From: Eubacteriales bacterium
GTDB lineage: Bacteria; Bacillota; Clostridia; Oscillospirales; CAG-272
Reading direction: 5' to 3'
DNA length: 35,877 nt
Assembly (NCBI GenBank): GCA_018383975.1
Contig: JAHAZT010000021.1
Location: 1 to 35,877, forward strand
Part shown: positions 15,082-35,877 of the stretch, piece after piece
Layout of the letters: each line of letters begins with the position of its first letter
How positions within the stretch are numbered: position 1 is the first letter of the stretch
Notes under the pieces: model-generated
Database searches by the model: none
What the model was told of the DNA's origin: nothing
Seen by the model: only the letters and a program-made list of their open reading frames with translations
Made by a program: the position numbers and the translations under genes

Positions 15082-15651
15082 ATGAAAGACAAAACAAAAG
15101 GCTTCTGGGCTGAATTCAAGAAGTTCATCTCAAAGGGCAACGTTGTCGATATGGCTGTCGGTGTTGCCGTTGCAACAGCCTTCACGGCAATCGTAACGGC
15201 GTTCACAAAGGGCTTTATCGCCCCGATTATTTCCCTTCTCTCTCACGACGCGTCCCTTTCCGATATGAAATGGGTCATTCGTCCCGAGGAGGCGGAAGTC
15301 GCCGCCGACGGCACCAAAACAATTCTTACTCCCGAGGTTGCAATTCTCTGGGGTTCATTCCTTCAGTCGATAATCGACTTCCTTATTATTGCGTTCGTTA
15401 TGTTCATATTCCTCAAAATCGTTATGAGCGTGACCAAAAAAGCCGAAAAAATGCGTATGGAGCTGACGGGCGAAGACAAAGAGCGTGCAAAAGCGGCGGC
15501 GGAAGCCAAAGCCAAGGAAGAAGCGGAAAAGAAAGCCGCAGAGGAAGCAAAAGCCGCGGCGGAAGCCGAGCTTGCCGCGGAAAAAGCAAGAAAGGCGAGA
15601 GAGCTTGAACTGCTTGAACAGATTGCGGCTTCTCTCAAGGAGTCGAAATAA
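15082..15651 (+). CDS. mscL: Large-conductance mechanosensitive channel with extended charged C-terminal region
   Basis: FWAEFKKFISKGNVVDMAVGVAVATAFTAIVTAFTKGFIAPII matches the MscL N-terminus and TM1; second TM at LWGSFLQSIIDFLIIAFVMFIFLKIV; then a Lys/Ala/Glu-rich stretch. Confidence 0.92.
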   Translation: MKDKTKGFWAEFKKFISKGNVVDMAVGVAVATAFTAIVTAFTKGFIAPIISLLSHDASLSDMKWVIRPEEAEVAADGTKTILTPEVAILWGSFLQSIIDFLIIAFVMFIFLKIVMSVTKKAEKMRMELTGEDKERAKAAAEAKAKEEAEKKAAEEAKAAAEAELAAEKARKARELELLEQIAASLKESK

Positions 15652-15992
15652 TGGAAAATTGCATTTTCTGTATGATTTGCGATGGGAAAATCCCTTCCAA
15701 AAAGGCATATGAGGACGATAGAATCCTTGCGTTTTATGACATAAATCCGCAGGCACCTGTCCATATTCTCGTCATTCCCAAGGAGCATATTCCCTCAGTT
15801 GACGCAATAACGGCGGAAAACAGCGGCATCGTTTCGTACATTTTCGAGCACATTCCGCAGATTGCAAGAGCCGCAGGACTCACCGGCGGTTATCGCATAA
15901 TATCGAACTGCGGCGCCGACGCATGTCAGACCGTTCCGCACCTGCATTTTCACATTCTCGGCGGCGCAAAACTCGCCGATCGCATGGCATAA
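15651..15992 (+). CDS. HIT (histidine triad) family protein
   Basis: CIFCMICDGKIPSKKAYEDDRILAFYDINPQAPVHILVIPKEHI...HLHFHILGG. The start overlaps the mscL stop (TAATG). Confidence 0.95.
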   Translation: MENCIFCMICDGKIPSKKAYEDDRILAFYDINPQAPVHILVIPKEHIPSVDAITAENSGIVSYIFEHIPQIARAAGLTGGYRIISNCGADACQTVPHLHFHILGGAKLADRMA

Positions 15993-16175
15993 CCTACTTT
16001 TCTTTGAAAAGAAAAGTAGGCAAAAGAAACTTCAATTATCGGGAAGTTTGTGCGGAGTTTTAATTATCTGCACGGACAGAGCTTGCACAAAAGGCAAAAT
16101 AAACTTCAATAATTGATTTTACAAAACCTGATAAAAAAGAAAACAGAGGTGGTTTCCCATCTCTGTTTTTTTGTT
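15993..16175 (+). repeat. Structured intergenic repeat, copy A (direct orientation)
   Basis: Starts with palindrome CCTACTTTTCTT-TGAA-AAGAAAAGTAGG, then GCAAAAGAAACTTCAATTATCGGG, TTTTAATTATCTGC, AACCTGATAAAAAA, and ends with ACAGAGGTGG..CATCTCTGTTTTTTT. The same ordered blocks occur in reverse orientation at the right edge of the window. Confidence 0.8.
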
Positions 16176-16176
16176 T

Positions 16177-16872
16177 TCAGTTTTCGGGGGTATCTTCCGT
16201 TTTGTCCTGCTTTTTCTTTATCCACAACTGATATACGATGAGGGTAATTGCGGTAAACACAATTCTGCACGCGATGGCTATCCAGAAAGTTTTCGAGCGA
16301 TAATTGCTTATCTCCGCTCCGATAATCGTTTCAAGTATCAGGTCGGGGGCGGCGCCGAGAAGGCTTGCCACAAGAAATTTCGGATAATTTATCTTTGATG
16401 CTCCCATATACATACTGACAACGTCCATCGGCAAAATGCCTATAATTCGCAGTGCAAACACGGAAAAGATGCTGTTCCTTTTTATAAGCGAATAGAAATC
16501 GTTGAATTTCGGATATTTTTCCCGCAGTTTATCAACCATTATGCTGCCCGAGCATCTGCCGACAAGATACGCCGCGGAAAATGTTGCGGCTATTGCCGCG
16601 GCATTTGCCAGTATCGCCGCGACCTTATCCTTGAAAATCAGCGTGCCGATAAGCTCAATCAGCACGAACGGGCAAAATACGGAAAGCCCTTTTGCCGCTC
16701 CGAGAATCATCATGAAAAGCACAGCGGGCGCCACGGTTTTCGGTGCAAGATCCTTGATTATATCCGCCGTAATTCTATCCCTGAAAATAAAATAAAGTAC
16801 GGCAAAAGCGATTATTATCAGAAGCGGCAGACACCTGACGATTTCAAGTGCCGTGCTTTTTTTATTCTTCAT
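16177..16872 (-). CDS. TVP38/TMEM64 (SNARE-associated / DedA-like) family membrane protein
   Basis: Multiple TM segments; SAAYLVGRCSGSIMVDKLREKYPKFNDFYSLIKRNSIFSVFALRIIGILPMDVVSMYMGASKINYPKFLVASLLGAAP is typical of this family. Confidence 0.8.
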   Translation of the reverse strand: MKNKKSTALEIVRCLPLLIIIAFAVLYFIFRDRITADIIKDLAPKTVAPAVLFMMILGAAKGLSVFCPFVLIELIGTLIFKDKVAAILANAAAIAATFSAAYLVGRCSGSIMVDKLREKYPKFNDFYSLIKRNSIFSVFALRIIGILPMDVVSMYMGASKINYPKFLVASLLGAAPDLILETIIGAEISNYRSKTFWIAIACRIVFTAITLIVYQLWIKKKQDKTEDTPEN

Positions 16873-35474: not shown

Positions 35475-35566
35475 GGAAAGATGGCTGAGCTGGTCTAAGG
35501 CGCACGACTGGAAATCGTGTTTGGGCTAATACCCCAACTAGGGTTCGAATCCCTATCTTTCCGCCA
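35475..35566 (+). tRNA. tRNA-Ser(GGA), CCA encoded
   Basis: Acceptor GGAAAGA/TCTTTCC, anticodon arm CACGA-CTGGAAA-TCGTG (anticodon GGA), long variable arm, GGTTCGAATCC T-arm, discriminator G and CCA. Confidence 0.95.
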
Positions 35567-35602
35567 AAGCAAAAGAGCACCCATTGGGTGCTCTTTTGCT
35601 TT
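35566..35602 (+). terminator. Terminator-like hairpin directly after tRNA-Ser
   Basis: AAAGCAAAAGAGCACCC-ATT-GGGTGCTCTTTTGCTTT, perfect 17-bp stem with 3-nt loop. Confidence 0.8.
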
Positions 35603-35650
35603 GCGATAGGGATTCGAACGGGCTCGGTAGTGAATGACAGCCTTGGACGG

Positions 35651-35705
35651 CTGTCAGAGCCGAGCCTGACCGAGCCGCAGCGAGACTGTCAGAGCCGAGC
35701 CTGAC
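35651..35705. repeat. 20-bp direct repeat CTGTCAGAGCCGAGCCTGAC, two copies with a 35-bp period
   Basis: Copies at 35651-35670 and 35686-35705 are identical. Confidence 0.9.
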
Positions 35706-35719
35706 GGCGTTTGATTTGC

Positions 35720-35862
35720 TCAAAACAAAAACAGAGATGAAAAATTCACCTCTGTTTTTTATTTTTTATCAGGTTACGTCTGCGCAGATAATTAAAAATC
35801 TGTATATCGTCCCCGATAACTGAAGTTTCTTTTGCCTACTTTTCTTTTCAAAGAAAAGTACG
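35720..35862 (-). repeat. Structured intergenic repeat, copy B (inverted relative to copy A)
   Basis: Minus strand reads TACTTTTCTTTGAAAAGAAAAGTAGGCAAAAGAAACTTCAGTTATCGGG...TTTTTAATTATCTGC...AACCTGATAAAAAAT..ACAGAGGTG..CATCTCTGTTTTT, same blocks and order as 15993-16175. Confidence 0.8.
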
Positions 35863-35877
35863 GTCAGAGTATTGTGA

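Follow-up and report, generated by a model that had tools for sequence, protein, structure and literature searches.

A dispersed A/T-rich repeat with a predicted intrastrand triplex, located behind native stop codons in an Eubacteriales genome

The window, a DNA stretch of 35,877 nt from an Eubacteriales bacterium, contains two intergenic repeats with conserved hairpins, one of which (copy A) begins directly behind a HIT-domain gene. This locus raises the question of what kind of element the two copies represent, what is conserved in them, and how a repeat comes to start at the first base after a stop codon.

Copies in the window and in their genome

The two copies had been described as an inverted pair, and we confirmed this over 105 nt with 80% complementarity (Table 1). 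Folding compared with shuffled sequences gave z-scores of -6.8 for copy A and -6.2 for copy B, and the core pattern had no occurrence in 300 simulated windows. The native TAA stop of the HIT gene (15990-15992) is followed by copy A with a gap of 0 nt, and the stop of the convergent VTT-domain gene lies just past the other end of the copy. Similarly, the TGA directly 5' of copy B is a possible stop of a gene truncated by the contig end. Hairpin 2 of copy A qualifies in the terminator scan, in agreement with its suggested terminator-like role; hairpin 2 of copy B is not listed by the scan, and hairpin 1 has no T-run. The only Rfam match in the window at the gathering score is a tRNA. Two other repeats are seen near the tRNA-Ser gene: a perfect 19-bp inverted repeat, terminator-like, directly after it (35565-35603), and a direct repeat CTGTCAGAGCCGAGCCTGAC, with two copies 35 nt apart, between it and copy B (35651-35705).

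Table 1. Features of the two repeat copies and adjoining genes (window coordinates)
Feature	Position	Strand	Sequence, evidence or remark
HIT-domain gene	15651..15992	+	Pfam HIT 1.3e-26; 4 element-free congeners share its C-terminal end
Copy A	15993-16175	+	repeat
Copy A, hairpin 1	15993..16020	+	CCTACTTTTCTT / TGAA / AAGAAAAGTAGG
Copy A, arm of predicted triplex core	15998-16005	+	TTTTCTTT; within hairpin 1
Copy A, purine arm	16008-16015	+	AAAGAAAA; within hairpin 1
Copy A, putative third strand	16021..16029	+	CAAAAGAAA, mirror of purine arm; triple covariation
Copy A, genome-specific 3' part	16030..16080	+	CTTCAATTATCGGGAAGTTTGTGCGGAGTTTTAATTATCTGCAC...; 19-copy alignment, little covariation
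Copy A, degenerate second unit	16093..16116	+	GGCAAAATAAACTTCAATAATTG; other copies with tandem partial units
Copy A, hairpin 2	16137..16172	+	intrinsic-terminator-like (16 bp, T-run); terminator scan
Convergent VTT-domain (DedA-like) gene	16177..16872	-	Pfam VTT_dom 8.5e-16
Copy B, repeat proper	35720-35863	-	repeat
Copy B, hairpin 2	35724..35758	-	ACAGAGGTG/CATCTCTGT; sequence, folding
Copy B, predicted triplex core	35826..35859	-	ACTTTTCTTTGAAAAGAAAAGTAGGCAAAAGAAA; pattern search
TGA directly 5' of copy B	35864..35866	-	sequence; contig ends at 35877

The genome (1.48 Mb in 90 contigs, 92.6% complete) contains about 45-54 copies, as counted from searches and individually retrieved stretches: BLAST with copy A returned 123 pieces at about 45 places, and the exact core pattern detected 54 cores. 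Several copies are found at the ends of contigs; they probably interrupt the assembly, and the genome may hold more of them than were counted. The aligned copies start with CC[G/T]TACTTTTCTTTGAAAAGAAAAGTAGG, continue through CAAAAGAAAC into a genome-specific CTTCAGTTATCGGG..., and often have a second GGCAAAAGAAACTTCA unit about 75 nt further on. Beyond the region of this second unit they diverge into the ACAGAGGTG hairpin, different terminators, or further repeats, and no 3' end shared among them is seen in the alignment. The 3' part starting with CTTCAATTATCGGGAAGTTTGTGCGGAGTTTTAATTATCTGCAC is conserved across the copies of this genome and absent from the relatives examined. Further units of 15-16, 22-23 or 30-31 nt may be added at the 5' end, in every case toward the upstream gene. 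A degenerate second GGCAAAAGAAACTTCA unit makes up part of the additional length of copy A, and tandem units are present in many copies.

The original prediction of a selected, dispersed, non-coding element well beyond chance, with constant stems and variable loops, is upheld, and dozens of copies together with many other taxa (see below) contradict the possibility that the two copies stand alone without relatives. Some details have changed. The AACCTGATAAAAAA segment and the ACAGAGGTG hairpin, regarded as parts of the element, are such in the window, and genome-wide they belong to a minority of copies (the hairpin to 7 of about 39). The block described as near-invariant is real, and CAAAAGAAA inside it forms the conserved third strand after hairpin 1; this mirror strand, the zero-nt attachment to stops and the distribution over phyla had all escaped that prediction. 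A coding role of TYFSLKRKVGKRNFNYREVCAEF was rejected, as CCTAC copies and CCGTAC copies do not have it in the same frame. The proposed spurious C-terminal tails are real in part: four or five genes of this genome, besides those whose stop directly precedes a copy, end in ..TFL* within the 5' arm.

A third strand that varies with the hairpin

The core of the repeat is formed by an arm CTTTTCTTT, an arm AAAGAAAAG, and a segment CAAAAGAAA that mirrors the second arm. The mirror relation of the post-hairpin segment to the 3' arm first became evident from relatives. Cores were identified in Paraburkholderia, Burkholderia, Stenotrophomonas, Lysobacter, Pasteurella, Desulfobacterales, Nitrospirae, Lentisphaerae, Saprospiraceae/Chitinophagales, Selenomonadales, and many Clostridia, and BLAST detected a relative in Ilyobacter (Fusobacteriota). 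The distribution is sporadic: a class-wide sample has cores in 2 of its 388 genomes, and a broader pattern detects them in 21 of 396 genomes of the same order; one genome (G459) has 75 copies, and Paraburkholderia replicons have BLAST relatives at about 40 places each. Phage records gave no match and the IMG/VR viral contigs a single contig, and spread by phages was rejected on these grounds. One gammaproteobacterial copy had no Rfam match at E<1.

Two architectures of relatives are worth recording. At four Paraburkholderia loci (L078, L081, L122, L144) a convergent pair of copies encloses a few hundred nt of partly inverted-repeat DNA, and the outer ends are common to such pairs (CTATTAGCGTTGCCCCTGTGCGGGGC or a similar sequence). 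The whole resembles a large palindromic element; a 608-bp contig consists of one of them. At L051, L058, L059, L065, L071, L291, L329 and L330 the stretch after the hairpin is a tandem array with units of 40-100 nt, some of which contain a terminator.

Examination of the three strands revealed concerted changes. The T-run of the 5' arm and the A-run of the third strand are equally long (n = 2 to 6) in 235 of 247 copies, and two copies in genome G460 combine an additional C in the arm with a corresponding G added to the third strand (TTTTCTTCTTTT / AAAAGAAGAAAA). The C/G position was then left open in all three strands in a search of 369 Gammaproteobacteria and 396 genomes of the same order (765 in total). 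The 130 copies among the matches listed, which are samples consisting of the first places per genome, include 91 of the TTTTCTTT/AAAAGAAA type, 33 of the TTTCTTTT/AAAGAAAA type, no swapped combination, and 6 with another base. Counted as distinct sequences among the matches listed, the distribution is 53/0/0/22 (Fisher 2e-19), a value overstated by the non-independence of related copies, as the 2x2 test counts copies and not independent events and the two types could be two old lineages. Both types are present in Gammaproteobacteria and in the same order, and together in genome G040. The same pattern read backwards had no matches in these genomes. Run length, the extra C/G and the shifted C/G agree as lines of evidence. 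One copy of the shifted C/G type (L388, genome G844) starts just after an apparent tRNA 3' end (TTCGAGTCCC...CCACCA).

Since Watson-Crick pairing cannot yield mirror covariation, these changes point to a triplex. At the level of sequence, covariation of this kind is the hallmark of a class II intrastrand triplex (PIT/BoxC/TM motif), in which CAAAAGAAA of copy A would be the reverse-Hoogsteen strand, and a third strand changing with its duplex in distant bacteria implies selection for such a predicted fold. The class II order of pyrimidine arm, purine arm and mirror purine strand is present, and the mirror strands of 8 nt, the loop of 2-4 nt and the second loop GTAGGC (6 nt) in the window fall within the ITxF rule (stem 6-15 nt, loops 1-6 nt); some proteobacterial loops have 8 nt. 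Covariation between third strand and duplex, which we took as our own criterion for selection on the fold, was likewise found.

An additional pairing is observed in variants with loops of at least 5 nt, where the 3' side of the loop forms base pairs with the segment immediately 3' of the third strand. Such pairing of at least 4 bp occurs in 47 of the 69 distinct long-loop elements, compared with 10.5 expected and a maximum of 21 in 2000 permutations, and in G459 the pairs GGCAGC..CTGC and GGCGGC..CCGC covary. The long-loop variants are mostly from Proteobacteria, and also from Bacteroidota, Desulfobacterota and Selenomonadales. Short-loop copies (clostridial, those of the window included) have no loop-flank pairing of that length, and a pseudoknot in the window's own copies is unsupported.

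Attachment to native stop codons and the origin of copies

The position of copy A directly after the HIT stop, noted before, turned out to be the rule. In this genome, the gap between the stop codon of a codirectional ORF and the start of the copy is 0 nt for about 22 copies and 1 nt for one, and the 0-nt start is near-universal for copies behind codirectional genes; the count is measured from the outermost unit, as the automatic neighbour scan measures from the innermost hairpin unit and gives larger values for some copies. One of the flanking stops (L016) may itself sit in a decayed unit. About 8-9 copies are located upstream of divergent genes or elsewhere; copies with such other neighbours are approximately 56-127 nt upstream of divergent genes or beside another copy, and the one at L017 is preceded by a terminator. 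The protein ends agree with those of congeners for HIT, ProRS, GlnQ, a GTPase, MutS2 and others, and same-genus orthologues are mostly element-free, often with a terminator close behind their stop; the stops are thus native and the insertions recent. PFK is an exception, with a diverged copy also at the PFK gene of G001. Unchanged C-termini of orthologues reject a stop codon borne by the element. A simple TRA sequence target was also rejected, as the copies away from stops lack TRA at the junction and those trailing genes sit on in-frame stops. The flanking stops (about 9-10 TAA, 15 TGA, 0 TAG) track the stop usage of the genome (48/72/3 by approximate ORF calls), with no preference beyond it, and the adjoining genes have no obvious common function.

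Elsewhere in Clostridia, and in Selenomonadales, most copies that trail a codirectional gene are 0-30 nt from its stop; in G460-G462 (L286-L336) short GGGACGCG-type repeats lie between stop and hairpin, starting 0 to a few nt from the stop. Near-zero junctions are found in other genera too, and the independently annotated dapF gene of P. multocida is separated from its copy by about 5 nt. Greater distances are usual in Paraburkholderia, with 60-250 nt in a mainly proteobacterial set. The zero-nt rule is not universal.

The above comparison shows three covarying strands in a dispersed, recently spread element attached to native stops. It is probably best explained as an A/T-rich intrastrand-triplex (PIT/BoxC/TM) repeat, non-coding and selfish, that is selected as folded DNA. 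In a single strand, arm CTTTTCTTT would pair with arm AAAGAAAAG, and CAAAAGAAA would fold back antiparallel to the purine arm as the third strand (A*A-T, G*G-C); the loop of long-loop variants would also pair just 3' of the third strand and lock the fold. Single-stranded DNA can adopt class II triplexes; for RNA, triplexes of the purine motif are reported not to form and those of the pyrimidine motif to form (PMC4666352), which suggests single-stranded DNA as the site of the selected fold, or else a pyrimidine-motif RNA triplex of the opposite strand. E. coli PITs (BoxC/PIT) block DNA polymerase in vitro and showed no promoter or terminator activity, and stable BoxC triplexes were undetected in double-stranded DNA or in vivo (PMC4666352). 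The present repeat probably arrests DNA polymerase, its copies may arise by replication-linked template switching or tandem slippage, and they would be tolerated between stop codon and terminator. Random insertion followed by selection does not account for the exact 0-nt placement. We propose very tentatively, as an idea of low probability, that new DNA is added at the first base after in-frame stops by a mechanism recognising stops as such, for which the triplex-forming single strand would serve as substrate or recognition end.

An mRNA 3'-UTR element, whose hairpin at the stop would delay termination, shield the 3' end or insulate genes from one another, would agree with the orientation and position behind stops, the terminator-like second hairpin, the PFK copies in both this species and G001, and the precedent of E. 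coli REPs, for which ribosome stalling is reported when they lie within 15 nt of stops (PMC12306157). We consider it unlikely, given the lack of a common function among the adjoining genes, the many orthologues without the element, the 8-9 copies upstream of divergent genes or elsewhere, the variable spacing in other genera, and a third strand that in sense RNA would be of the purine motif, reported not to form there (PMC4666352).

The exact native-stop junction of 22-23 copies, near-zero junctions in other genera and at P. multocida dapF, empty orthologous sites, and growth of arrays at the 5' junction are what one would expect if a dedicated mobile-element enzyme inserted the repeat beside stop codons, with the hairpin-triplex as recognition end. 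Such an enzyme is nevertheless distinctly unlikely. Among the only transposase and reverse transcriptase families searched, Y1_Tnp is absent from this genome (92.6% complete) and from G001, G035, G459, G460 and G464, and RVT_1 from this genome and G459; no constant 3' end is seen, nor, in the absence of a close empty site, any target duplication, and phages have no occurrence beyond the one viral contig. For this genome, mobilisation by RAYT/Y1 is rejected by the missing Y1_Tnp, and with it the REP-like reading in the RAYT sense; origin by reverse transcription or from a group II intron is rejected by the missing RVT_1. No shared terminal inverted repeats were seen, and the MITE reading is unsupported.

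An RNA from the opposite strand could instead form a pyrimidine-motif (U*A-U, C*G-C) class IV triplex in an H-type pseudoknot, a layout resembling the telomerase RNA pseudoknot. The same covariation suits that strand, and RNA is reported to form triplexes of the pyrimidine motif (PMC4666352). No Rfam family matches at the gathering score, however, and this option, which would require transcription of that strand, is very improbable.

Comparison with known repeat systems

The BoxC/PIT/TM-ECO motif, described in E. coli and 262 proteobacterial genomes (PMC4666352), shares with the present family the class II arrangement (pyrimidine arm, loop, purine arm, short loop, mirror purine strand), the intergenic location with up to dozens of copies, the sporadic presence among relatives, and the occurrence of inverted pairs, here in Paraburkholderia. 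By anatomy, the repeat has the class II PIT/TM features tested and would be assigned to this class as a predicted triplex. In contrast to BoxC/PIT/TM-ECO, which is G/C-rich in E. coli, it is A/T-rich, occurs in several phyla, has loop-flank pairing, and possesses a species-specific 3' part with tandem units. The A/T-rich window sequence does not match the BoxC/TM-ECO consensus CCCTCNCCCN3-6GGGNGAGGGN3GGGNGAGGG. Likewise, TM-ECO motifs have no distance trend (10-310 nt, more often upstream), whereas the spacing to stops is zero or near zero in the present family.

REP/BIME repeats with RAYT (Y1 transposase) are also short dispersed palindromes near gene 3' ends that form arrays; they differ by the third strand and its covariation in our family, and by the lack of a Y1 transposase in this genome. 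The G4-forming heptamer repeats of Xanthomonas and Nostoc (PMC4692102) are similarly intergenic, with a non-B fold near or overlapping stop codons, but they are G-rich heptamers forming a quadruplex and have no hairpin. The predicted Burkholderia sRNA Bp1_684 (Rfam RF02421) overlaps the Burkholderia relative below the gathering score; the match is limited to the upstream hairpin and first arm, where it takes in positions 1-49 of a model of 113. Some sequences of the present family are probably included among the A/T-rich hits of the ITxF database, and no paper describing the family was found among those searched. The new features are the A/T-rich family in several phyla, the comparative evidence for the third strand, the loop-flank pairing of long-loop variants, and the placement at stop codons.

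The case for bacterial intrastrand triplex motifs previously relied on counting motifs and on folding in vitro, and the main survey mostly left out A/T-rich ones, as they are numerous in scrambled genomes too. Natural variation offers a test of the triplex, with the third strand tracking the duplex in distant bacteria. The attachment to native stops is a sharp, testable placement rule, present in this exact form in no repeat compared here, and the mechanism of spreading as well as effects on translation termination or mRNA 3' ends become open to experiment.

Finally, nested dispersed repeats were observed downstream of the element at L004, L010, L014, L020, L022, L026, L031, L035 and other loci. 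They are of four types, GGCTCCCTTGTGTAAAGGGAGC-hairpin-TGAGGGATTG, GCCTTCCCC..GGGGAAGG-hairpin-GGATGAGG, CCTCCCC..GGGGAGG-hairpin-GGAAGGG, and CCCTCTCTTG..GAGAGAGGG-hairpin-GGGTGAG, and all have the appearance of G/C-rich pyrimidine-purine-purine triplex motifs whose second loop contains an additional hairpin.
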